From Bacteroidota bacterium (GTDB lineage: Bacteria; Bacteroidota; Bacteroidia; Chitinophagales; Saprospiraceae): DNA of 64,000 bases. Positions 2 to 55,245 of this stretch are shown here, piece by piece (the stretch's first letter is position 1; each line of letters opens with the position of its first letter). The position numbers were made by a program, and so were the translations under genes. The notes beneath the pieces are model-generated. The model was given only the letters and a program-made list of their open reading frames with translations. It did not search any database and had not been told where the DNA came from. The stretch spans positions 124,001 to 188,000 of the forward strand of contig WGNL01000007.1 in assembly GCA_016124585.1 (NCBI GenBank), read 5' to 3'.

Positions 2-2959
2 GATAGTGTGGATGTCCAGTTCCACGATGCCACTACGATTTTACAAAATGGCATCTCCATCGACAGCTTCTTTTGGGTGTCAAGCAATGGTGATACTTCA
101 AGCTTGGCTAGCCCAGTTTTTACGGTCTATGCAGGCCAAACTTTCCAAGTGACGATGAATATTTTCACTTCGAATGGCTGCGATGGCTCAAAATTGAAAG
201 AGCTGAAATTGGAGTTTATTGAAATAAATTTTGCAGATTCTGTAGTGCTTTGCCAAGGTGATTCAACTGCTTTGAATCCCTTTGGAAATACGGGTTACGA
301 GTACCATTGGACTCCTAACATCGCCATCAGCAATCCAGATGTAGCGAACCCAACCGTTTGGCCAACCCAAACCACGGTTTATTCCGTCGAAATCACAAAT
401 TTTTCCCCCGACACATGTTCCGTAACAAGGACTGTGACGGTCTTTGTACCTGAAAAAATTAACGTAGCTGCACCTTCTGACACGCTGACCTGTGGGGCAC
501 CTGTCATGCTTTGCGCAGCAGCCAACCTGACCAATCTGGATTATGATTGGACGGCGATACCCGGTGGTTTTATCGGCAGTGGTTCCTGTCTGACGGTGCT
601 TCCTTCCACAGATACGGAATATGAAGTCATTGCTACCGATCAGTATGGTTGCCATAATGAAGACACCGTATTTGTAGCTGATGAATCAGTCAAAATCAAT
701 TGGCAACAAGCTGGATTTGAGTGTCCGGAAACTCAAATTCCTTTGACGGTAAATAACCTCGTTTCCGACCACAACCTCAGTTATATTTGGAGCGCCACGC
801 CTCCCGGGCAAATTTTGCCACCTGCTGTTGGTGCAACGGTGAACGTGTTGACGCCACCTGCCAATGGCTCAGCCAACTACAGCGTCACCGTGACCAACCA
901 ATACGGATGTACGAAATCACTTTCGCAGGCTATTTCGAGCTTCAATTTTGTACCTACCGTTGTTCAATCTGTGGATGTGTGCCCCGGAGTAGGGGAAGAA
1001 TTGAATGTCGGAGCCAATCCTAACCTAAATTACCTGTGGTCTCCGGGTGCAGGCCTTAGTTGTACAACATGCCCAAATCCAACTGTAACCGTTTCACAAT
1101 CAATAGTGTACACGGTAACAATTTCTGATGAATTTGGGGTTGATCATTGCGAAGAGACCTTTCAAGTGGATGTAAATTCAGCGCCTGTCATTGAAATAAC
1201 AGAGACGGTGGACACCTTTACTTGTGGCCAACCGATTGTGATTGCTGGCCAACCGAACGTTCCTGTGGTGACTACTATTTGGAAAGATGCTCAGGGTAAC
1301 CAGCTTGGCAATTCAACTACGCTGGCGGTTGACCCTGATAGTTTGGCTACTTATACCATCTGTGTTACGGATGCTTTTGGCTGCTCCGCAACGGATGAGG
1401 TAGTGGTCGCCAACAACCAGTTAGACATCCTGCTGGATGGCAACGGTGTGATAGACACTTGTCCCATGCCAAATTACAATATCTGCGTCACGAACTTAGA
1501 CTTCAATGATATTCTGACCTACAATTGGACGACTTCCAACGGTGGCACTATCCTGAGCGGTGGCAATACGGCTTGCCCAGATGTGACGACGCAACAAGGT
1601 GTCACTTCAACTTTCCAAGTTGTGGTAACCAACCAGTTTGGTTGCAGTGAAACCAAGGACTTCGATGTTACAACTTACAGTTTCAACCCGATAGCTAGAG
1701 AGATTGCAGACATCTGTCCAAATATTTGGACGCCAATTAATCCTGAGGCTGCAGCATCCGATTTGATTTACCACTGGTCGCCACAAGTCGGTCTGGATTG
1801 TTACAATTGCCCGAACCCAAGTGCTTTCTTGGAAAACAATCAGACCTATCAAGTTACGATTCAAGGATTCCACGGGGCAGATACCTGTTCATTCTCACAA
1901 ACTGTACAGGTGCGGGTAATGCCAAAGCATAACCTCACGACCAGTCCGGTCGATACCATGCTTTGCGATAGTATCGATTTGACCTTATCCGCATTTTACA
2001 CCAGCAATGTCATTTCCAATGTAGCTTGGTCGCAGACCACAGACTTTTCAAATCCATTTGCAAACACAGACACTGTGACGGTGACGCCATATGAAACGGA
2101 GTATTATTTTGTGCAAACGACTGATACGCTGGGCTGTCATGATACGGCGCAAATTGTCGTGTATGCATATCCTGTTGATATTTCCATTGATCCACAACTT
2201 AATTTCTGTGAGGAAATCGGTGAGTTGTTAATCCCCGTTATCAATCACCATCCTAATCAAAACTTGACTTTTGATTGGGTGCCTACTCAGTATATTGATA
2301 CGCAAAATCCAGATGGAAGTATCCTCGTAACGGGCTTAATGTTCGATGAAACATTTACGGTGGTGGCCACCAACCAATACGGTTGTACAGAGGAAGAATC
2401 AACTGAAGTAAGTTACTACGACATTGAGCCGACTTTGGGGCAAATCACTTCCACCAAAGACACGATTTACTACAATTCGGGTGAGTTTTCTCAGCTTGAA
2501 ATCACTTCTGTTCCGGGCTATACCTACCAATGGTCACCAGAGGAGGGCCTTGACGACCCCACTATTCCCAACCCAATCGCAATGCCTGATGAAACTAGAA
2601 CCTACACGGTGCTGGTGACGGATGAAGGCGGGTGCCAGGCGTTCAGGGAAATAACAATTGAAGTAATCAACCCGGATTGTGATGAGCCGAACTTATTTTT
2701 ACCCAATGCATTCACACCGAACAGTGATGGTGAAAACGATGTGATTTATTTCCACAGCAATATCGTGGCTACCATGGAACTGGCCATTTATGATCGCTGG
2801 GGTCAACGGGTTTTTTACTCGGAAGACCAAAATGTCGGCTGGGACGGCACTTTCAAAGGAGAAAAGTTGACGCCAGATGTCTATGGCTTTTATCTACATG
2901 CCAAATGCTACAACGGCCAGGAATACTTCAAAAAAGGAAATATTACCTTATTAAGGTAG
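2..2959 (+). CDS. Secreted PKD/Ig-like repeat protein with T9SS type B (gliding motility-associated) C-terminal domain, 5' truncated
   Basis: The frame is open to the window edge (GAT AGT precede the first GTG at 8), so the N-terminus and signal peptide lie outside. About 980 residues remain. They consist of Cys-containing Ig/PKD-like beta modules with recurring Y-x-W-S/T-P and VTNQ(Y/F)GC signatures. A long repeat of roughly 260 residues is visible: two segments share the order VTNQxGC, then a CP motif, then WSP-x-x-GL-x-C-x-x-CPNP. The last 90 residues (LFLPNAFTPNSDGENDV ... YDRWGQRVF ... GWDGTF ... GxYGFYL ... GNITLLR) match the gliding-motility-associated C-terminal domain that sends cargo to the type IX secretion system. 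By family knowledge it is exported and surface-attached or released; adhesion or matrix function is inference. An inverted-repeat terminator follows the stop. Confidence 0.9.
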   Translation, partial: DSVDVQFHDATTILQNGISIDSFFWVSSNGDTSSLASPVFTVYAGQTFQVTMNIFTSNGCDGSKLKELKLEFIEINFADSVVLCQGDSTALNPFGNTGYEYHWTPNIAISNPDVANPTVWPTQTTVYSVEITNFSPDTCSVTRTVTVFVPEKINVAAPSDTLTCGAPVMLCAAANLTNLDYDWTAIPGGFIGSGSCLTVLPSTDTEYEVIATDQYGCHNEDTVFVADESVKINWQQAGFECPETQIPLTVNNLVSDHNLSYIWSATPPGQILPPAVGATVNVLTPPANGSANYSVTVTNQYGCTKSLSQAISSFNFVPTVVQSVDVCPGVGEELNVGANPNLNYLWSPGAGLSCTTCPNPTVTVSQSIVYTVTISDEFGVDHCEETFQVDVNSAPVIEITETVDTFTCGQPIVIAGQPNVPVVTTIWKDAQGNQLGNSTTLAVDPDSLATYTICVTDAFGCSATDEVVVANNQLDILLDGNGVIDTCPMPNYNICVTNLDFNDILTYNWTTSNGGTILSGGNTACPDVTTQQGVTSTFQVVVTNQFGCSETKDFDVTTYSFNPIAREIADICPNIWTPINPEAAASDLIYHWSPQVGLDCYNCPNPSAFLENNQTYQVTIQGFHGADTCSFSQTVQVRVMPKHNLTTSPVDTMLCDSIDLTLSAFYTSNVISNVAWSQTTDFSNPFANTDTVTVTPYETEYYFVQTTDTLGCHDTAQIVVYAYPVDISIDPQLNFCEEIGELLIPVINHHPNQNLTFDWVPTQYIDTQNPDGSILVTGLMFDETFTVVATNQYGCTEEESTEVSYYDIEPTLGQITSTKDTIYYNSGEFSQLEITSVPGYTYQWSPEEGLDDPTIPNPIAMPDETRTYTVLVTDEGGCQAFREITIEVINPDCDEPNLFLPNAFTPNSDGENDVIYFHSNIVATMELAIYDRWGQRVFYSEDQNVGWDGTFKGEKLTPDVYGFYLHAKCYNGQEYFKKGNITLLR

Positions 2960-8483: not shown

Positions 8484-8511
8484 GCCTCAATGACAAATGA
8501 CTCAATGACAA

Positions 8512-9213
8512 ATGACTAAACTCGGCAAACTTTACCTGATTCCTTGCCCACTTGGCGAAAATGCGAATGAAACAATTCCAACTTATGTGGTGGATATTTT
8601 GCACCAGTTGACCTATTTGGTAGCTGAACGAGCAAAAACGACCCGGCATTTCATCAAATCAACGAATCCAACGAAGTCCATTTCGGAGTTTCAAATCGAA
8701 GAGCTTAACGAGCATACGCCCGCTGTTGAGCTTGAGAATCTCTTGAAACCTGCTTTGGAGGGAAATGATTTGGGCATCCTGAGCGAGGCAGGCTGTCCCG
8801 GTGTTGCCGACCCTGGTGCCAAATTGGTGGAACTGGCACATCGAAAAGGCGTGGAGGTAGTTCCGCTTGTCGGCCCGTCGTCCATCTTGCTGGCGTTGAT
8901 GGCGAGCGGAATGAACGGTCAGTCTTTTGCATTTCACGGCTACCTCTCCGCCAAATCCCCTGCCGATGACCTCAAACGGTTGGAACAACTCGCTGCCAAG
9001 CACCGCCAATCCCAGATTTTTATTGAAACACCTTACCGAAACAAGGCCATCATTGAACAAGCGCTGCGGGTTTTACAACCGAATACTAAGTTTTGCATCG
9101 CTGCGGATTTGACCTTGGCGACGCAATTTGTGCAAACAAAAACGATTGGCGAATGGAGGAGAACACCACCGGCGTTGTTGGAAAAGCGGCCGGTGGTGTT
9201 TTTGATTGGATAA
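8512..9213 (+). CDS. SAM-dependent methyltransferase of the RsmI / tetrapyrrole-methylase fold
   Basis: 233 aa. Features of the TP_methylase fold are visible: GKLYLIPCPLG at the N-terminus, then LVAERAKTTRHFIK, the SEAGCPGVADPGAKLVELAH motif and the VPLVGPSSILLALMASGMNGQSFAFHGYL stretch. The SEAGCP-x-x-ADPG and GPSS motifs are typical of RsmI, which 2'-O-methylates C1402 of 16S rRNA. Bacteroidota usually encode a full-length RsmI and this shorter paralogue with more divergent ends, so the exact RNA target is uncertain. Single gene with its own promoter. It is preceded by duplicated CAATGACAAATGACT words that overlap the ATG. Confidence 0.85.
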   Translation: MTKLGKLYLIPCPLGENANETIPTYVVDILHQLTYLVAERAKTTRHFIKSTNPTKSISEFQIEELNEHTPAVELENLLKPALEGNDLGILSEAGCPGVADPGAKLVELAHRKGVEVVPLVGPSSILLALMASGMNGQSFAFHGYLSAKSPADDLKRLEQLAAKHRQSQIFIETPYRNKAIIEQALRVLQPNTKFCIAADLTLATQFVQTKTIGEWRRTPPALLEKRPVVFLIG

Positions 9214-9291
9214 TTATGAGCTAGCAAATTATTGGGCAAGCTAATGGTGAATACCCATTTATGTCTAACCAATTAATTTGGCGGCCAAGAA

Positions 9292-12093
9292 TCAATCCTC
9301 CTCACTCCCCCGCACATCAATCGTAATTCCCCCTTCCTTCCCAAATCCCTGAATCGAATACGCAAACGTCAGCATCACGTAGCGGCGCAGGGAACTGATA
9401 CGCTGCTCCTCCAAATAATTCAGCTCGCTGTTACGGCGGACGCTCAGGTTTTTATCCAAAATATCGAAGGCAGAAAGGGTCAGTTTGCCTCGGTTGTTTT
9501 TCAATAAATACCTGGAAATGCTGGTCTCCCAGAGCGGCACGACCTGTTCGCTCCCGAAATTCACATCGGAATAAACCGAGTACCGGAACTTGCTCCCAAA
9601 TTCCCACTTGGAGTTTGGATAAACAGTCGCCTCGGCGTAGTAGCGGCGGTTGAGGTAGGTCTGGTTCAGGGCTTCGGCGTCCGAGTAGGTCGTTTTGTTG
9701 TGGCTAAGCCGGACCCCGATAGTGGCATCGAATTTCTCCTTTTTCCGGTTGCTGAACGACAGGTCAAGGCTGTTCGTGAGGCGGTCGGTGTTGTTTTCCA
9801 GTTCGTTCACGAAGAGGATGCCCCGGTTCCAGGACGAGTTCAACCCAATCCGAATGGTCGTTTTCAATGGGCGAAGTGGGGTGTTAAAATCCACGAAACC
9901 CCGCAACGTCCGGTCATTTTTCACGTTCACCGGGCGAATTGTTCTGCGGAACAGCGAGTCCACCGAACTGGCATTGGTGATACGGTCTTTCACATATTCC
10001 GCTTGGATGTTTGCGAAGAAACTGGTGAACGTGAACTGGTCGAAGCGCATGAAATTGGCGCTCAGTTCATGGGCATATTCAGGTTGTAAGTTCGGGTTGC
10101 CGACGTACTGGTTTAGCGGGTCGGAATTGTCCACCAGCGGCTGCAATTGCTCAGGCGATGGCTCCCGCAGATTGGTCTGGTACTCGAACCTGAAATTCCT
10201 GCCGATGCCCGGCTCGTAATTGAAAAACAGGCTGGGTAAAATGCGGGTGAAATTGCGTTTCAAAGTCTCCAATTCGCCTCGTTGTTGGCCTTCAAGCGAG
10301 GAGCGTTGCAAGGCGCTGCCACCCGTGAGGTTCCACAATTTTCGGTTCATCATGAAATTCAGGCCCGCCCGGTCGTATGTGTAACCCCGGTCGTAATGGT
10401 TGGTCAGGTTATCATTCTGCTGCTCTCCTCCGGGGCCAATGTCATAAAAATCCTTGCCCGTTTCGTTGGTGTAATTCTGGCGGGAGGCATTGATTTCCAA
10501 GTACTTAGCCTTGCCAAGCGGTTCGGTGTACGAGGCGCTGAGGCCGTAGCTCATGGCATCATCTGAGGTAGTCTGGCGCTGGTTTAGAGCGATACGGGTG
10601 CTATCCGTTTGATAAAAATCAGTTGAGGAAATCAGCTTCCCATCCTGCGAATTGGTACCCAAATTGAACGACCCGTCCGCCACAAATGCCCTGCCTTTTT
10701 TACCAAAACGATGGCGATAAGTGGCCGTATTCGTCAGGTCTAGGCGTTGGCCGCTTGAAGTGTAATCACGGTCGTTGTTGTTTTCCAAAAATCCATTTGC
10801 TCCGAAGGTCTGACTGTTGCCAAAACTGTTGTAGTGAGCATCACTGAGTGCCAAACTGCTCCGCAATGAGACATCTTGAAAGCTGTCGATTTCATGCTTC
10901 AGGTTGATGTTCAAGCGATGGTTGACGCTTTCCGTGTGGCGAGTTTCGTCCTCGGTGCTGAGGAAACTCTGGTCGCCCAAGAGGTTCTGGCGCTTGACGC
11001 TGCGCTCAATATCGTTCTGGATTTTGCTCAGAAAGTAGCTGCTGCGCAGCGAGGTTTTCTTCCCAAAATCCCGATTGAAATTCAGGCCACCTGCCCAAGT
11101 GGTGAGGATGCCGTCCACCTGACCTCCTTCCAACGGAATGCCCGTTTGCCCCAAGTCAAATGACAAGCGTACGCTGCGATTTCCGCCACCACCACCGCTC
11201 ATCATGCTGCCGAGGCCTCCCATGAACTGCATGTAATCGTTGAAGCTGAAACCTGCTTGGTTGTTGTTGTTTGCCATGCCGATGGCTGAGATTTGGCTGT
11301 TTTTTGAAAAGCGGTTGAGGTTGAATCGGCCTTTGTATCGCTCGTCAGTGCCACCGCCAACTGTCGCATTCCCGAAATAGCCGTTCTTGTGATCTTCCTT
11401 CAATTCGAGGTTGATGGTCTTTGACTCCCGCCCATCTTCAATGCCCGTGAATTCGGCCATGTCCGATTTTTTGTCGTACACCTGCACCTTGTTCACGGCG
11501 TCAGCAGGTAGGTTTTTGGTGGCCACCTGCGGGTCATTGCCGAAGAACTCCTTACCATCCACAAAGACATTCTGCACGGTTTCGCCCTGCGCCTTGATGG
11601 TGCCATCGGCCTGCACCTCCACGCCGGGCAGCTTTTTCAAAAGGTCTTCAACTGGCGCACCCGGTTGTACTTTGAAGGCGGCGGCGTTGTAGTTGATAGT
11701 GTCGCCGTTCATGCGCAGTGGCACCCGGTCGGCGGTGACTTCCACTTCTTCGAGTACGGAAGAGGCAGGGGCAAGTGTGATTTTGCCCAACTCCAATTTT
11801 TCATTCCCAGCGGGAACCTCAATCGGCTGCCAATGCGTCTCCATGCCCACATAGCTCACTTGCAGCAAGTACTCGCCGAGCGTAATTTTTTTGATGGTGA
11901 AATGCCCATCTGTCTCGGTGATGCCGAAAGCGGAAAGTGTAGAATCCTTTTTTTCCATCAGAACGACGGTAGCGGAGAGCAGGCCACTGCCCGTGCTGTC
12001 AGTGACTATGCCCGAGAGTTCTACAGTTTTTTGGGCAAGGATTTTTACTGAGAAAAGTAGGATTAGAAATACAATCGGGTATTTAGTTTTCAT
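9292..12093 (-). CDS. TonB-dependent-receptor-like outer membrane beta-barrel protein with carboxypeptidase-like N-terminal domain
   Basis: 933 aa from ATG 12093, chosen because a signal peptide (MKTKYPIVFLILLFSVKILAQ) follows directly; an upstream in-frame start at 12150 adds simple-sequence residues. After the signal peptide comes a carboxypeptidase-regulatory-like beta-sandwich (TVELSGIVTDSTGSGLLSATVVL...). Next is a plug-like region (VTADRVPLRMNGDTINYNA ... LLKKLPGVEVQADGTI) and a long barrel of alternating aromatic/polar strands. A Gly-rich Met/Ser stretch (about residues 290-310) is probably a loop. It is the outer membrane beta-barrel family that often pairs with GLPGLI proteins, as here: the GLPGLI gene lies 87 nt upstream on the same strand. 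Ligand unknown. The pair diverges from a two-component system that may regulate it. Confidence 0.85.
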   Translation of the reverse strand: MKTKYPIVFLILLFSVKILAQKTVELSGIVTDSTGSGLLSATVVLMEKKDSTLSAFGITETDGHFTIKKITLGEYLLQVSYVGMETHWQPIEVPAGNEKLELGKITLAPASSVLEEVEVTADRVPLRMNGDTINYNAAAFKVQPGAPVEDLLKKLPGVEVQADGTIKAQGETVQNVFVDGKEFFGNDPQVATKNLPADAVNKVQVYDKKSDMAEFTGIEDGRESKTINLELKEDHKNGYFGNATVGGGTDERYKGRFNLNRFSKNSQISAIGMANNNNQAGFSFNDYMQFMGGLGSMMSGGGGGNRSVRLSFDLGQTGIPLEGGQVDGILTTWAGGLNFNRDFGKKTSLRSSYFLSKIQNDIERSVKRQNLLGDQSFLSTEDETRHTESVNHRLNINLKHEIDSFQDVSLRSSLALSDAHYNSFGNSQTFGANGFLENNNDRDYTSSGQRLDLTNTATYRHRFGKKGRAFVADGSFNLGTNSQDGKLISSTDFYQTDSTRIALNQRQTTSDDAMSYGLSASYTEPLGKAKYLEINASRQNYTNETGKDFYDIGPGGEQQNDNLTNHYDRGYTYDRAGLNFMMNRKLWNLTGGSALQRSSLEGQQRGELETLKRNFTRILPSLFFNYEPGIGRNFRFEYQTNLREPSPEQLQPLVDNSDPLNQYVGNPNLQPEYAHELSANFMRFDQFTFTSFFANIQAEYVKDRITNASSVDSLFRRTIRPVNVKNDRTLRGFVDFNTPLRPLKTTIRIGLNSSWNRGILFVNELENNTDRLTNSLDLSFSNRKKEKFDATIGVRLSHNKTTYSDAEALNQTYLNRRYYAEATVYPNSKWEFGSKFRYSVYSDVNFGSEQVVPLWETSISRYLLKNNRGKLTLSAFDILDKNLSVRRNSELNYLEEQRISSLRRYVMLTFAYSIQGFGKEGGITIDVRGSEED

Positions 12094-48996: not shown

Positions 48997-50067
48997 ATGG
49001 AGAACGTATTTGGAAATAAATTGGTGTCGGCTCGGAAAATGGCGGGCATGTCCTTGCAAGACTTGGAGGACAAACTGGACAAGCTAGTGTCCCGTCAGGC
49101 GTTACATAAATACGAGCAGGGGAAAATGAAGCCTGATAGCCAAGTGCTGATAGCTTTATCAAATGCTTTGAATGTACCTGTTGATTACTTCTACTCCATC
49201 CCAACCGTACAAGTCGAACTGACGAATATCAGTTATAGAAAATATGCTTCAAAGATTTCAAAAACCGGACAATTGTCAGTAGAAGAAAAAGCTAAAGAAA
49301 TCTGTGAGCGCTATTTAGAATTGGAACACTTGATAAATCCAACTGAGAAGCCAGAACACTTCATCTATGACAAGATTATTGCAAATGCAGATGACGCTGA
49401 AGCTGCCGCAAAAAAACTACGGGAAACTTGGTCGCTTGGCTATGACCCCATCCCCGATGTGGTCGAAATGCTGGAGGACAAGGGTTACAAAGTAGTGGAA
49501 TTAGATGCTCCCGATGGTTTCGATGGAATGAAGGCAGATGTGGATGGGCACAAGCTGATTGCACTCAAACGAAGTACGAAACCAAACGAGGATGTGGTAA
49601 GAAAGCGATTCACCGCCCTGCATGAATTGGCGCACCATGCCTTAAAATTTTCGGATAAACTCTCAGAGAAGGAAGAAGAGAACCTATGCCATACGTTCGC
49701 CTGTGCCGTATTGTACCCTGCCGACATGGCCAAGAAAGAACTGAGCAAGGATAGGTTCCACTTCTATCAAAACGAACTGGTGTTGATTAAAGAAAGGTGG
49801 GGGATTTCCTTCCCTGCCGTTTTCTCAAGGGCATTGCATTTGGGCATTATCTCTTCCTATATATATAAGCGTTTCAATATTGGGTATAAGGAAAGAAAAC
49901 TGCACCTGAACGAGCCAGGGAGGTTTATGAGCAAAGAAAAACCAGTGAAGATGGAACGGCTGATTTATATGGGACTGTCAAAAGAAATCTTGACCATCAA
50001 CGAAGCTGCATTTTTTGCAGGTATGACCGTTGGTGAGTTCCGAAAACAATTGCAGCTATTGGTATGA
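48997..50067 (+). CDS. Xre-family regulator fused to ImmA/IrrE (M78) metallopeptidase
   Basis: 356 aa. Residues about 5-65 form an Xre helix-turn-helix (LVSARKMAGMSLQDLEDKL ... VSRQALHKYEQGKMKPDSQVLIALSNALNVPVDYF). Residues about 120-250 form the M78 peptidase with zinc motif H209-E-L-A-H213 (FTALHELAHH), followed by the EEENLCHTFACAVLYP helix with a candidate third ligand. The helical C-terminus (about 255-356) ends in TINEAAFFAGMTVGEFRKQL. ImmA-type proteases usually cleave a repressor to derepress mobile or defence genes; here the DNA-binding domain is on the same chain. First gene of an operon with a PIN gene (4-nt ATGA overlap). Upstream inverted repeat suggests autorepression. Confidence 0.93.
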   Translation: MENVFGNKLVSARKMAGMSLQDLEDKLDKLVSRQALHKYEQGKMKPDSQVLIALSNALNVPVDYFYSIPTVQVELTNISYRKYASKISKTGQLSVEEKAKEICERYLELEHLINPTEKPEHFIYDKIIANADDAEAAAKKLRETWSLGYDPIPDVVEMLEDKGYKVVELDAPDGFDGMKADVDGHKLIALKRSTKPNEDVVRKRFTALHELAHHALKFSDKLSEKEEENLCHTFACAVLYPADMAKKELSKDRFHFYQNELVLIKERWGISFPAVFSRALHLGIISSYIYKRFNIGYKERKLHLNEPGRFMSKEKPVKMERLIYMGLSKEILTINEAAFFAGMTVGEFRKQLQLLV

Positions 50068-50564
50068 AGATACTCGTCACAGACACCAATGTGTTCTTTG
50101 ATTTGATGAACATCCAAGCCCTCCCTGAATTCTTCGGGTTGGACTTTGAGATATGCACAACGGATTTTGTGGTGAACGAGATACTGCGCTTGGAGCAAGC
50201 TGAACAAATAAAAAACTTCATAAGGTCTAAACAACTCACAGTTTTCAGTTTTTCAGGAGATGAAATCGAAGAAATCGTAAACCTGAAAACAAAGCGCAAC
50301 CTACGGAGAATTGCTGATAAATCGGTCTTATGGAAGGCACTGCAACTTAAATGTACGCTCCTCACAGGCGATAAAAGCCTGAGAAACGAAGCTGAAGAAA
50401 ATGGATTGGAGGTACATGGCAGCATTTGGGCGGTGGCGATGATATTGGAAGCGGAATTATTGAGTAACAGCAAAGGCATTGAACTCTTTGAAAAACTGAA
50501 AATCGTCAACCCAGGGTTGCCTGTTGATGAAATTGAGAAACTAATTATGAAACTAAAATCTTGA
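50064..50564 (+). CDS. PIN-domain putative ribonuclease
   Basis: 166 aa. PIN fold with the acidic residues expected for metal-dependent RNase activity: D7 (VTDTNVFFD), E39 (VVNEIL), D85 (IADKSVLW) and D103 (LTGDKSLRNEA). The C-terminal helix (EIEKLIMKLKS) completes it. Start overlaps the Xre-ImmA stop by 4 nt, so translation is coupled. PIN proteins in two-gene cassettes are usually toxins, and an Xre-ImmA plus PIN pair has been proposed as a toxin-antitoxin type. Toxicity here is inference. Confidence 0.9.
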   Translation: MKILVTDTNVFFDLMNIQALPEFFGLDFEICTTDFVVNEILRLEQAEQIKNFIRSKQLTVFSFSGDEIEEIVNLKTKRNLRRIADKSVLWKALQLKCTLLTGDKSLRNEAEENGLEVHGSIWAVAMILEAELLSNSKGIELFEKLKIVNPGLPVDEIEKLIMKLKS

Positions 50565-50567
50565 GCT

Positions 50568-50834
50568 ATGAAAATAATTGTAAAAGAAGGTCATATTGGA
50601 GTGATGACTTTAAGGGATGGGACGCAAATGAACTATGGGATGAAACGAATAACGCGCAATTTCACCAAGCTCATTTATTACACTGACAAAGGCATCCATG
50701 AAATGCTGAGACCCGACATGAACGAAGAAGAAAAGGCCAAAGCAATGGAATTAAAGAAAATGGACGAAAAGGCGTTGCGAAAGTTGGGGTATGTGGCGGA
50801 GGTGGCTTTGTTAGGCCTACGTACGTTTTCCTGA
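50568..50834 (+). CDS. Small protein of the Xre-ImmA/PIN operon
   Basis: 88 aa, starting 3 nt after the PIN stop. Highly charged, mostly helical C-terminal half (PDMNEEEKAKAMELKKMDEKALRKLGYVAEVALLGL) and a beta-like N-terminal half (MKIIVKEGHIGVMTLRDGTQMNYGMKRITRN). No family recognised. Tight coupling suggests a third component of the cassette, e.g. a regulator or accessory subunit. Confidence 0.7.
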   Translation: MKIIVKEGHIGVMTLRDGTQMNYGMKRITRNFTKLIYYTDKGIHEMLRPDMNEEEKAKAMELKKMDEKALRKLGYVAEVALLGLRTFS

Positions 50835-51002: not shown

Positions 51003-53756
51003 ATGCTACAATTTTCTCAACCAGGTGCTATAGTTTCATTGATAAATGACAGAAAAAAACCCATTTTTTTTCTTGGTGCTGGTGCCTCAAAACAATCTGG
51101 AATTAAACTGGCGTCTGAAATTGTAGAAGAAGCAGCGAAATGGAAATATTGTATTCAGCAAGGAATGGATATGAATGATCCTAGATTAACTATGAGTGAT
51201 TGGAAAAAATGGCTTCAAACATTTCCTTGGTATACAGAAGATTATAGCACAATTTATCCACGAATTGTAGAAGAGTTTTTACATCCAGTACAAGCTAAAA
51301 AAGATTTTTTTCTTAAGATAATCAACCCACGAATTCCATCGAGTAAGGGGTATGAGAAGTTATCAGAATTACTACACCTTGGGTTACTTGACACAGTATT
51401 GACAACTAATTTTGACAACTGTTTGTATCATGCAGGAGTTCAAATAAGAAAAACAGAATTACAATCTATAAAAACGCCATCAGACTACTCACAATTTTCC
51501 TACACGCCAATCTACCCACAAGTTGTTTATCTTCATGGCTCAGTCGAACATTATACTGATCAAAATCTTATAAATGAAGTTCAAAACTTAAATTCTGAAA
51601 TTGTTAGCATGCTCAAGCCTCTGCTTAAAGATAGGCCATTGGTAGTGATAGGCTATAGAGGCGCAGAACCGTCAATAATGAATGACTTATTGTTAAACCA
51701 ATTGCAATTCACAAACAATTTTAGGCAAGGGGTCTATTGGTGTATTCTTAAAAAAGAGAGTGAAAAATTTTCAAACATTGAAGAATCATTCACTCCTCTG
51801 CTTAAAGACTTTGCTTCGAAATTAGGAAATAATTTTCAGTTGGTAACGATTGATGGCTTTGACGAACTGCTCGAAAAAGAATTATGGGGAAAACTAGCTG
51901 CAACTCAAATTGATGTTAAAAATCTAAATGTCAATCTGTCATTGATAACTGATATTCAAAGAGATGCTGTTTCAAGTTTAAGGAAAAACACATTAGGCCC
52001 AGTTGAAATAGCCTTTATTAGAGAAAGGATTAAGAATTATAGTGAAAGACTGAGAGTAAAAGTGTATAATGATGATGAATGGCTTCATGAACAAATGATA
52101 AGACTTCGTATAGCTGAATCAATTGGAGAATCGGTTGAATTGACAAAATCTGGAATACTGTTGTTTTCATCTCGAACTCAAGAATATGTGCCCGCTTCAT
52201 TTGTAGTTCTGAAGTTTATTGGAAATCCTGATTGGTTAAAAAAAATTACATCTTTTTTAACTGAGAAAGAGATAGACACAATGGTTGATTACAGCATGGG
52301 ATATATAACAAGGGAGATAAAAGGTAATATTTGGAATCAATTAAATGAAGTAACTGATGCATTGGCATTAATAAATAGGCCGTACAGGCTTAAAGGTGAG
52401 ACTTCTGAAAACGTATATCCTTATCCTACGCTAGCATTAAAAGAAATAATTGTTAATAGCTTAGTGCATAGAGATTACTTGATTGATGAATTTGTAAGGA
52501 TTGATGTCTACGAGGATTGTATAATTTTTACGAGCCCTGGAGGGTTAGTAGAAGAAGTAAAGAGGCAATTAAGCACAGAATCTTTAGAAGTAGAAATTAA
52601 AAAAGGTAATAAAGGTATTAAGGGTTATAGGAATCCAGTGATTGCTGATATATTTTATGGAGCAGGTGCAATGGATAAAGAAGGCTCTGGATTGTCTGAT
52701 GTAGTAAAACAAGTAACTAATAACTCCTCCACAGTTTCATTTGGTGTAACTACTGATGAAAAGTATTTTGAAGTAAAAATTTATAAAAGGATAGAAGAAT
52801 TTGATGAAGATACGAAAACAGCAACTCCAATAAAAATAAATGAATCTTCAAAATTTGCTTGTAATTTATTAGAAGTTTTGAATTTACCAGCTAAAGTATT
52901 TCATGCGTCAACAGTAGCTAGAATACCTAAAGATATCTCAAAAATTTTAGGCGAAACTTGGAATCCACCGTGTTTGCTTGCAAGAGAGAGACTTTGGTCA
53001 TTCTATGACTTAACAGAATATCAAAACCCATTAAGAAAATGTGTTGATGTAGGTACTGTGGAAGAACTTTCCCTTGAGGAATTTATCAGCCAAAGTGGTA
53101 ATACTATAGAGTTTGTAAGAATGCTCAACCAATGTATAATTGAACACATGTTCTCGATAGGATTAAGGGTAGATGTTAAAAAGAAAAGGGCATATTTTAC
53201 AAAAACGTTTGAAGAAACTGCAAAAGAAATAACATATCAAGCTAGATTAAAGAAGGCTACTCGAACAGTAGCAAGACCTAAAATAAATTCGAATAGTGGA
53301 AAGATTAGCTATTGGGAGCATAAATCCATCTGGTTTAAGTTTGAACAATTAGGCAATAAATGGTATTTGATAATCAATCCTGCTTACGTTTTTACGACTG
53401 ACGGCATAAAAAATTTACTAAAATCGGAAAGGGTGAATATTTTATCTACAAGGAAGGCATCTAGGGATTATAATATGGCGGTGCATAATGACCTTACCTT
53501 TTGGAGTAATTATTTATCAAATGGGAATGAAAACGCTTTTTTGTTAAGGATGAATAATAAAGAGATAAATGATGGTACTAAGATTGGGCCTATCCCACCG
53601 AGTATAGTAGTATCGTCACGGATGCCTACTGTAGTTGTAAATGACATTTCAGTAAGTGAAGATTATGTTGAGCCCGCTGAACTAATAGATTTAGATCAAG
53701 TTGAAAAAGAACTTGAAAAATTGGCTATTGAGGAAAATCTAGAAAACAAAAAATAA
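51003..53756 (+). CDS. SIR2 - COG2865/RecG-like ATP-binding - APAZ protein, partner of a short prokaryotic Argonaute
   Basis: 917 aa. Residues about 10-295 form a SIR2-like NAD-binding fold: GAGAS at 25-29, TTNFDN with N136, LHG with H178 and GYRGAEPS at 217-224. Residues about 335-595 resemble COG2865 / 'RecG-like' ATP-binding proteins: ELTKSGILLFSSRTQEYVP, ALKEIIVNSLVHRDY (N485, H489-R-D), FTSPGGL, YRNPVIADIFYGAG and KEGSGLSDV, a GHKL-like arrangement. Residues about 620-885 are APAZ-like, with the tell-tale SYWEHKSIWFKFEQLGNKWYLIINPAYVFTTDG. By SPARSA precedent, SIR2-APAZ binds the short Argonaute and destroys NAD+ when it senses target nucleic acid. The extra middle region makes this far longer than characterised SIR2-APAZ proteins. 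AT-rich codons; weak -7 box at 50959-50966. The next start lies 1 nt after the stop. Confidence 0.88.
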   Translation: MLQFSQPGAIVSLINDRKKPIFFLGAGASKQSGIKLASEIVEEAAKWKYCIQQGMDMNDPRLTMSDWKKWLQTFPWYTEDYSTIYPRIVEEFLHPVQAKKDFFLKIINPRIPSSKGYEKLSELLHLGLLDTVLTTNFDNCLYHAGVQIRKTELQSIKTPSDYSQFSYTPIYPQVVYLHGSVEHYTDQNLINEVQNLNSEIVSMLKPLLKDRPLVVIGYRGAEPSIMNDLLLNQLQFTNNFRQGVYWCILKKESEKFSNIEESFTPLLKDFASKLGNNFQLVTIDGFDELLEKELWGKLAATQIDVKNLNVNLSLITDIQRDAVSSLRKNTLGPVEIAFIRERIKNYSERLRVKVYNDDEWLHEQMIRLRIAESIGESVELTKSGILLFSSRTQEYVPASFVVLKFIGNPDWLKKITSFLTEKEIDTMVDYSMGYITREIKGNIWNQLNEVTDALALINRPYRLKGETSENVYPYPTLALKEIIVNSLVHRDYLIDEFVRIDVYEDCIIFTSPGGLVEEVKRQLSTESLEVEIKKGNKGIKGYRNPVIADIFYGAGAMDKEGSGLSDVVKQVTNNSSTVSFGVTTDEKYFEVKIYKRIEEFDEDTKTATPIKINESSKFACNLLEVLNLPAKVFHASTVARIPKDISKILGETWNPPCLLARERLWSFYDLTEYQNPLRKCVDVGTVEELSLEEFISQSGNTIEFVRMLNQCIIEHMFSIGLRVDVKKKRAYFTKTFEETAKEITYQARLKKATRTVARPKINSNSGKISYWEHKSIWFKFEQLGNKWYLIINPAYVFTTDGIKNLLKSERVNILSTRKASRDYNMAVHNDLTFWSNYLSNGNENAFLLRMNNKEINDGTKIGPIPPSIVVSSRMPTVVVNDISVSEDYVEPAELIDLDQVEKELEKLAIEENLENKK

Positions 53757-53757
53757 A

Positions 53758-55245
53758 ATGGCTACCAAAATTAATATAATTGAAATTGAAGACCCCCAAC
53801 TCGAATTTGGAGGTGTCGGTGAATTTTTTGACCCAAAAGAAGGACTGAAACAAGGAGGCCCATTCGACCTAAGGTTCGGCAATGCTAGGCGTGCTAGTAT
53901 TAATATAGGTTTTATTGGGCACGAAGAATCAATTCAAAAAGCATTAAACTGGTTGACTAGATGCAAAGATGAAATTGTAACTAAGATGCCAAATACAGTC
54001 CAGTACCCATCATATCCTGGTTTTAAACAAGTGTTTCGCACTGATATTAATTTTAATACTAAATGGAATTATGTAATAAGCGATGAGAGTTTCAAGAATG
54101 CTTTCTCAAAAAAAAATGATATTGATATCTTTAAAAGTGTTTTAGGACTATTTGAAGCTGGTATCGAAACTTTGAACAATTTAGATTCATTTCGACCTGA
54201 CACAGTAATATGTTGTTTACAAGATGAAGTAGTAGATAAATGTTGGAGTGTTCAAAACACTAAAATAAATAAAAAAGACAGAGAAAAAGTGAAAAATATG
54301 TCTACACAACTTTCTCTTTTTGACGATAATCAATTTGAGCCTATTGAAGAACAACAAGAAGATATTTTGCACAGAGATTTTAGACGAGCTTTAAAAGCCA
54401 TAGCAATGAAGTATAGTCTGCCTATTCAAATAGGTAGAGATACTCTATTTTTAGACCTTAATAATAACCAAGATGCGGCGATAAGGGCATGGAATAGTAG
54501 TGTTGCGTTATATTATAAATCTGGAGGAATGCCATGGCGCTTGCGGCCTGATGCAATAGAAACTTGTTATGTAGGTCTTAGTTTTCACCATCTATATACA
54601 ACACACGAAAAGCACCTTGTACGATCATGCATAGCTCAAGCTTTTTCATCTGATGGAGAAGGATTTGCAATTAGAGGAGCTAATGTTCAATGGGATGATA
54701 ATCAAGGTAAAGATGTCCATCTTACAGAAAAACAAGCAATCCTTGTAGGGGAAAAAATTATTGATGAATATAAAAGAAGGACTGGAAGTACACCATTAAG
54801 AGTAGTTTTACATAAAACAACATATTTTAATGATGAAGAAAAAGCTGGATTACACTATGCTTTAAACAATATACCTGTTGTAGAGTTAGTTAATTTAGCT
54901 CTAACTGATTTTAGACTTGTTAGATTTGGTGATTATCCTCCCAAAAGAGGTACATTATGTATTGTTAATGATCAAGCTGCATACCTTTTTACCTCCGGCT
55001 TCATGCCATCAATAAAGACATATCCAGGCCCTCATATACCTGTGCCAATTCAAATTAAAGCAGAAGATGGTGCGGACATAACAAGAATAGCGAGCGATGT
55101 CATCGCTTTGTCAAGAATGAACTGGAACACTGCTAGTATAACAGGAGGACACCCTGTTACTTTATCGTTTTCAAGAATGGTTGGAGGTATAATGGCAGAA
55201 TACGGAGATAAAGAACCTCCATCTTCGTTTCGCTATTATTTATGA
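53758..55245 (+). CDS. Short prokaryotic Argonaute (MID-PIWI), catalytically inactive
   Basis: 495 aa, without N or PAZ domains. PIWI-type landmarks: ARAWNSSVALYYKSGGMPWRL-like stretch at 242-262, YVGLSFHH at 271-278, the AFSSDGEGFAIRG hairpin, LRVVLHKTTYF at 347-357 and the C-terminal LSRMNWNTASITGGHPVTLSFSRMVGGIMAEY. The usual catalytic Asp in V-G-I-D is Ser275, and the second Asp (H-R-D-G type) is replaced in HKTT, so slicing is not expected, as in other short Argonautes. A QLSLF peptide at 184-188 in a variable linker matches the bacterial sliding-clamp-binding pentapeptide. It should load a small guide and activate the SIR2-bearing partner on target recognition. Separated from the partner gene by 1 nt. 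Confidence 0.92.
   Translation: MATKINIIEIEDPQLEFGGVGEFFDPKEGLKQGGPFDLRFGNARRASINIGFIGHEESIQKALNWLTRCKDEIVTKMPNTVQYPSYPGFKQVFRTDINFNTKWNYVISDESFKNAFSKKNDIDIFKSVLGLFEAGIETLNNLDSFRPDTVICCLQDEVVDKCWSVQNTKINKKDREKVKNMSTQLSLFDDNQFEPIEEQQEDILHRDFRRALKAIAMKYSLPIQIGRDTLFLDLNNNQDAAIRAWNSSVALYYKSGGMPWRLRPDAIETCYVGLSFHHLYTTHEKHLVRSCIAQAFSSDGEGFAIRGANVQWDDNQGKDVHLTEKQAILVGEKIIDEYKRRTGSTPLRVVLHKTTYFNDEEKAGLHYALNNIPVVELVNLALTDFRLVRFGDYPPKRGTLCIVNDQAAYLFTSGFMPSIKTYPGPHIPVPIQIKAEDGADITRIASDVIALSRMNWNTASITGGHPVTLSFSRMVGGIMAEYGDKEPPSSFRYYL

Follow-up and report, generated by a model that had tools for sequence, protein, structure and literature searches.

Closest described systems and the operon analyzed

The APAZ domain was introduced by Makarova et al. 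in 2009, in a text whose accessible part names neither COG2865 nor RecG (PMC2743648). In SPARSA systems of the Geobacter sulfurreducens type, a SIR2 domain with an Asn-His dyad is joined to APAZ in one protein, and a MID-PIWI protein is encoded by the adjoining gene. SPARDA and SPARHA systems (subclade S2B, PMC12205087) carry a nuclease on APAZ, and target-driven assembly into a filament was described for one SPARDA (PMC12205087). Among the best 50 of 1042 Foldseek matches to the full-length effector model analyzed here, a scope that applies to all full-model matches below, Protein Data Bank (PDB) titles describe SPARDA and SPARHA as filaments and SPARTA and SPARSA as tetramers; on APAZ, the short-Argonaute effectors with solved structures have TIR, SIR2 or a nuclease, and no title mentions an ATP-binding module. 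The operon described here lies in a 64,000-nucleotide stretch of contig WGNL01000007.1 from a Bacteroidota bacterium (the whole stretch is called the window). It shares the operon layout of SPARSA and differs by an additional COG2865/GHKL module of about 275 residues between SIR2 and APAZ. Judged from its sequence, it is a predicted two-gene bacterial immune operon, composed of a guide-binding short Argonaute and a putative NAD-destroying enzyme with an extra conserved domain of ATP-binding type.

A first-pass annotation, made from the letters alone, had reported a short-Argonaute pair with an enlarged SIR2-APAZ subunit. Both open reading frames (ORFs), of 917 and 495 amino acids on the plus strand, were recovered, separated by one base, and the pair was identified as a short-Argonaute system: the effector matched PADLOC model PDLC02402 with 1037 bits over residues 7-912 and PDLC02418 (named SIR2-Kinase-PNTD1-PNTD2) with 815 bits, and the Argonaute matched pAgo_I (E 1.8e-139). 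All motifs listed in that annotation are present, including GSGLSD at residues 561-566 and two APAZ strings (Table 1).

The architecture is already catalogued, by sequence in these PADLOC models and by description in two papers. The og_40 group of Ryazansky et al., compared here by description, has the same architecture, and the accessible part of that work gives 13 proteins with SIR2 in APAZ group IIb. A 2023 paper, also available in part, mentions one APAZ protein in which SIR2 occurs together with a histidine kinase domain, and suggests a possible dual function, exerted simultaneously, for proteins with two effectors (PMC10810196). Unlike these entries as far as they are described, the 16 aligned members here are without the AlbA_2 Schlafen domain and hold the GHKL half of COG2865 only. 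The novelty first assumed therefore does not extend to the architecture, and it stands for experiments and function, which are not described in the literature searched; few subscription papers were within reach of that search, and no text in it combined APAZ, Argonaute and RecG. The operon is an uncharacterized, conserved subtype with a possible extra control step, not a new architecture.

A conserved COG2865/GHKL module between SIR2 and APAZ

Pfam HATPase_c_4 was matched in the middle of the effector (E 2.6e-10, over the curated cut-off), and phmmer aligned DIP2311 (3lmm), which we take to be a COG2865 member, with residues 440-566 (E 3.6e-4). The module folded alone from 21 alignment rows with a predicted local distance difference test (pLDDT) score of 86.3 and a predicted template modeling (pTM) score of 0.86. 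Four DIP2311 chains were the top Foldseek matches to this fold (E 1.5e-11 to 2e-9), followed by histidine-kinase ATP domains (E from 6.8e-5). Both the fold and the module profile (A4) include five stand-alone COG2865 rows and are biased toward a COG2865 match; the Pfam and phmmer matches are free of that bias. The inserted module proposed in the first pass is borne out by these matches and by the conservation described below, and the predicted fold is that of a separate domain, neither SIR2 nor APAZ. The refuting outcome named in the first pass, a middle region belonging to SIR2 or APAZ, thus did not occur.

HATPase_c_4 was matched in 13 of the 16 full-length homologues (E up to 0.01), and the E-x3-N of the N-box and the G-x-G of the G2 box are kept in all 16. 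Invariant module residues are E481, N485, V488, H489, R490, Y492, G513, R543, N544, D549, F551, M557, G561, G563, D566 and F580. The four GHKL positions E481, N485, G561 and G563 are all among the 23 invariant of 267 positions at 336-602 (hypergeometric p 4e-5, a guide only because they were named after the alignment had been seen) and are invariant in 21/21 rows once the five stand-alone COG2865 proteins are added. An E-x3-N N-box is typical of GHKL ATPases that pair on ATP binding, and the N-box of kinases reads N-x3-N.

Of the labels first attached to the module, COG2865 was supported by Pfam and DIP2311, whereas RecG and Schlafen were not. No helicase family was found in a Pfam scan of the 917-residue protein (E up to 0.1), and SLFN_AlbA_2 was found in 0/16 homologues (E up to 0.01), with the stand-alone COG2865 protein L012 as positive control (E 1.9e-19). 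A histidine kinase label was likewise rejected, with no invariant His in the 16 homologues at 336-470, the phospho-acceptor region before the ATP domain. The module thus resembles COG2865 proteins such as DIP2311 in fold and motifs but is without the AlbA_2 half, with SIR2 before it and APAZ after it.

In 23/23 other APAZ partner or fused proteins, five of them SPARSA or fused SIR2 proteins, the module was not found (E up to 10); these 23 are a sample, not a census, and the comparison loci L147 and L152 are without an assigned partner. The same module type is joined to Argonaute in two single proteins of 1129 and 1188 amino acids (L157:2071-5460 and L158:2148-5714, minus), which contain SLFN_AlbA_2, a COG2865-like module and a C-terminal Argonaute. 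Both are full-length matches to PADLOC pAgo model PDLC02394 and keep the N-box and HRDY, and in a search of these two proteins the A4 profile aligns with them as far as the G1 box (E 3e-26 and 3e-25). They differ from the operon in being single chains with AlbA_2 retained, no SIR2 found, a distant Argonaute and HATPase_c_4 below the cut-off (E 3e-4 and 7e-4).

SIR2 domain

Pfam SIR2_2 was matched at residues 131-255 (E 6.9e-9, over the curated cut-off), and residues 18-298 matched the SPARSA SIR2 (8in8_B and two similar matches, E about 8e-17). In the alignment with one SPARSA SIR2-APAZ protein, N136 and H178 correspond to its Asn and His; N136 and D138 are invariant in 16/16 homologues and H178 is kept in 15/16. 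Mutation of the GsSir2 counterparts of N136 and H178 abolishes NADase activity, according to the accessible part of the source (PMC10781750). The same source gives 587 amino acids for GsSir2, so the present effector is about 1.6 times its size, and the earlier statement that known SPARSA subunits are about half as large was incorrect. In the SIR2 tree the domain clusters with the SPARSA and fused SIR2 sequences, apart from 48 others (support 92/94); the tree has long branches, its 48 other rows were chosen by similarity, and it does not settle the origin of the domain.

One family member from an Acidobacteria assembly (L022:7068-10736) has an N-terminal PNP_UDP_1 phosphorylase domain (E 8e-19) ahead of SIR2, with Tyr for the catalytic His and GGGAS for GAGAS. 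Its sequence suggests that the effector was possibly exchanged in place.

An Argonaute outside the SPARSA clade, and its APAZ partner

No Pfam family was found for the 495-residue Argonaute. Its PDB matches were 9om4_B (E 2.6e-66), SPARTA (from 1.3e-49), SPARDA-type (from 2.8e-43) and SPARSA chains (3.3e-22), and effector residues 618-852 matched the APAZ of the HNH system 9om4_A (E 4.9e-22). The closest PDB Argonaute and APAZ of the operon, both in 9om4, are shared with SPARDA/SPARHA as far as these are described; the operon differs from them in having SIR2 (SIR2_2) in place of a nuclease on APAZ, plus the GHKL module.

A tree built from 45 Argonautes placed all 18 rows of the family in one clade (99/97) near the nuclease-type group, with SPARSA and fused SIR2 Argonautes elsewhere. 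The 27 comparison Argonautes are a sample, not a census, and the SPARSA reference checked (one) scored 745 bits to 8in8_C. Approximately unbiased (AU) tests, carried out once the tree was known, rejected a clade uniting the family with SPARSA and fused SIR2 Argonautes (p-AU 1.2e-11; 3e-82 without the fused proteins) and did not reject one uniting it with the nuclease-type group (p-AU 0.18). The family APAZ profile matched 14 of the 23 comparison proteins; the nine missed are five SPARSA or fused, three TIR and one haloarchaeal protein. Under the model and sample used, the Argonaute is outside the SPARSA clade, and by sequence comparison the Argonaute and APAZ appear nearest to nuclease-type (SPARDA/SPARHA) systems. 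With the Argonaute so placed and the APAZ profile finding 0/5 SPARSA or fused proteins, the first-pass reading of an enlarged SPARSA system is not supported, and by its Argonaute the operon is not SPARSA. The simplest reading of the sequences is a chimera, in which a SIR2 domain and a COG2865 module would sit on a non-SPARSA Argonaute/APAZ backbone. A SIR2 effector occurs on two Argonaute lineages, so such systems are poorly named by the type of effector alone.

The MID residues K213 and Q224 are invariant in 17/17 Argonautes and align with K170 and Q181 of SPARSA; in the accessible account of GsSPARSA, mutation of K170 cost much of the activity, unlike that of Q181 (PMC10781750). At the presumed usual places of the catalytic Asp residues there are S275, kept in 17/17, and T354, where Thr occurs in 13 and Ser in four. 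On this basis target cleavage by this Argonaute is unlikely.

Less usual effectors were observed at the start of APAZ partners of nuclease-type short Argonautes, namely, DUF4062 (L143 and L145), SEFIR (L149), and an EAD8-like stretch below cut-off (L160).

Family and distribution

An alignment scan of genome contigs gave 61 loci, of which 18 (L020-L037) belong to the family; the other 43 match in the SIR2 or module part only. Family members occur in Alphaproteobacteria, Acidobacteriota, Bacteroidota, Ignavibacteriota and one Mycobacterium assembly, with a further member on a Mesorhizobium plasmid; the lowest identity with the window protein is 26%. A full-length match was found in 2 of 395 sampled genomes of the host phylum, host included. 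The short Argonaute is next in 18/18 loci whose sequence reaches the following gene (the window, L019, L020-L025, L027-L035 and L037); with the start codons chosen, the effector and Argonaute frames overlap in 15 of these, and gaps of 1, 5 and 30 bases separate them in the others. The 16-row effector alignment leaves out L024 (split frame), L026 and L036 (partial, with contigs ending before the next gene) and L019, which is included in the Argonaute tree. Counts slightly overstate independence, since L032 and L037 are near-identical. L002, from the same-phylum genome G306, is identical to L023, from an Ignavibacteria assembly, which makes Bacteroidota in the wide GTDB sense the probable phylum of the host. 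In the Mycobacterium assembly (L024:7881-8471 and 8487-10508), the effector is split in two frames and the Argonaute is intact.

No family member was found in the viral scan (35 loci, all matching within residues 6-352, with both patterns in SIR2 and the scan one-sided) or in the phage scan (10 records, each with less than 80% query coverage). A single-protein scan of genome contigs gave 20 pattern matches and no relative. A Pfam Piwi search of the host genome gave 0 matches; Pfam misses this Argonaute too, so this is no evidence of absence.

Proposed mechanism and alternative roles of the module

Our tentative proposal, which falls a little short of being probable, is an abortive-infection system with a guide-triggered NADase, in which the GHKL module, by pairing in an ATP-dependent manner, would gate SIR2. 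By analogy with relatives, the MID-PIWI protein and the APAZ region would bind an RNA guide and recognize complementary invader DNA. Recognition would assemble several complexes, as in SPARTA, SPARSA and SPARDA, upon which the SIR2 domains would become active, NAD+ would be destroyed and the infected cell would stop before the phage or plasmid spreads. The COG2865/GHKL module would bind ATP and, in the ATP-bound state, pair with the module of a neighbor, adding a second lock by which SIR2 may fire only if target-driven assembly and nucleotide-driven pairing coincide; this is the weakest step. A NADase effector triggered by guided target recognition is highly probable, and nucleotide binding by the module is likely. 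Gating of SIR2 through nucleotide-dependent pairing is somewhat less likely than not; it is suggested by the E-x3-N box, which is that of ATP-pairing GHKL ATPases, and by the position of the module directly between effector and APAZ. A conserved module of ATP type in that position could represent a nucleotide-controlled step, which is not described for this immune class in the literature searched.

Several points weigh against the proposal, as do the first and third of the alternatives below. GHKL ATPases usually open the G1 box with Asp; the residue at this place is Ser in the window protein, Asn in 14 and Ser in two of the 16 homologues, and Ser or Asn in the five stand-alone COG2865 rows, so adenine recognition may differ. 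L022 is without the SIR2 His and the HRD Asp and still keeps the module. The full-length effector model reached a mean pLDDT of 76.6 and a pTM of 0.39; its predicted domains are usable and their arrangement is not. The SPARSA contacts with the guide are not simply carried over, since N184, R190 and N195 of GsSPARSA are replaced by R227, N237 and I242 and, in the accessible account, N184A abolished GsSPARSA activity (PMC10781750); five nuclease-type and TIR Argonautes in the same alignment mostly differ at these positions too. No experiment on the SIR2-COG2865/GHKL-APAZ type was found in the literature searched, which consisted partly of abstracts and passages.

COG2865 proteins are usually assumed to bind DNA or RNA, and the module might instead provide a second contact with the invader. 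The AlbA_2 of the stand-alone protein L012 and the COG2865-like modules fused to other Argonautes (L157 and L158) fit such a role, which is nevertheless unlikely, as AlbA_2 occurs in none of the 16 homologues and their invariant positions cluster on nucleotide-site motifs.

A second effector, that is, a kinase or ATP-consuming enzyme beside the NADase, is suggested by the GHKL fold with histidine-kinase ATP domains among its Foldseek matches, by the SIR2-Kinase name of the PADLOC model and by the 2023 statement on an APAZ protein with SIR2 and histidine kinase (PMC10810196, available in part). We consider it distinctly improbable. The region where a phospho-acceptor is expected holds no invariant His, and the root mean square deviation to kinases is about 10-19 Angstrom among the Foldseek matches listed. 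Moreover, the N-box is E-x3-N, not the N-x3-N that we take to be the kinase form.

Within the sample, barring the distant fusions L157 and L158, the module is present only where SIR2 sits on a non-SPARSA backbone, and a low-confidence linker precedes it. An inert spacer that sets the SIR2-APAZ distance on a nuclease-type Argonaute backbone would agree with both observations, but there is little to recommend it, as the motif residues are invariant even at the lowest identity in the family and a spacer would not need that.

A SPARSA system with a decorative insert is scarcely credible: Foldseek placed SPARSA 8y80_E first for the full model (1.6e-17, 924 columns spanning the insert), ahead of mainly SPARHA, SPARDA and SPARTA chains with target-normalized template modeling scores up to 0.81, and the SIR2 grouping, not decisive with its long branches, points the same way, whereas both AU tests reject, under the model and sample used, the SPARSA clade for the Argonaute, and the APAZ profile, which also misses three TIR and one haloarchaeal protein, finds none of the five SPARSA or fused ones.

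Returning to the nucleotide-gated NADase, a wider version of it is doubtful on present evidence. An ATP-driven GHKL clamp, derived from COG2865 and without AlbA_2, would license a SIR2 NADase carried by an Argonaute backbone of nuclease type that forms assemblies. This would imply two or more separate fusions of GHKL modules with Argonautes, one in the present family and one in L157/L158, and, as L022 suggests, an effector position open to exchange. In such a two-key immunity, agreement between target recognition and nucleotide state would be required for the cell to die.

Operon layout, base composition and flanking genes

The features of the operon are given in Table 1.

Table 1. Features of the SIR2-COG2865/GHKL-APAZ and short Argonaute operon
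Feature	Position in window	Strand	Evidence
Effector gene, 917 aa, SIR2 - COG2865/GHKL-type module - APAZ	51003..53756	+	ORF, Pfam, PADLOC, PDB, model
SIR2 domain, residues about 10-300 (GAGAS 25-29, TTNFD 134-138, H178)	51030..51902	+	Pfam SIR2_2, SPARSA alignment, invariant columns
Low-confidence linker, residues about 301-329	51903..51989	+	pLDDT <50 at 301-323; 0 invariant columns at 301-335
COG2865-like module without AlbA_2, predicted GHKL fold, residues 325-605 (HATPase_c_4 core 497-591)	51975..52817	+	Profiles, fold, conservation
Motifs in COG2865-like module: E481, N485, HRD 489-491, PGGL 512-515, RN 543-544, GSG 561-563			
APAZ domain, residues about 606-850	52818..53552	+	9om4_A sequence match; Foldseek matches to APAZ chains of SPARHA/SPARDA
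Short Argonaute (MID-PIWI), 495 aa; K213, Q224, S275, T354	53758..55245	+	PADLOC, PDB, alignments

Directly upstream, at window positions 48997-50834, a regulator with helix-turn-helix (HTH) and M78-peptidase domains (PADLOC RmrA, E 4.6e-44), a weak PIN-domain protein and an 88-residue ORF are encoded in a toxin-antitoxin-like arrangement. No homologue of the HTH-peptidase, PIN or small ORF, or of the ORF downstream, was detected at the 19 family loci L019-L037, and the flanking ORFs were therefore left outside the system. A flank gene was present in 8 of 41 genomes.

Promoter-like sites showed no excess (19 versus 20.2 in shuffles). Terminator-like sites numbered seven, compared to 2.3 in shuffles; they lie inside the two genes, six of the seven on the opposite strand. 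A repeat search gave nothing readable as element ends. The G+C content of the two-gene pair is 33.7%, compared to 47.3% in the remaining window and ~46% immediately outside on either side, which suggests, without proving it, acquisition from elsewhere. A second low-G+C stretch of the window, at 45.5-47.5 kb, has 37.6%.

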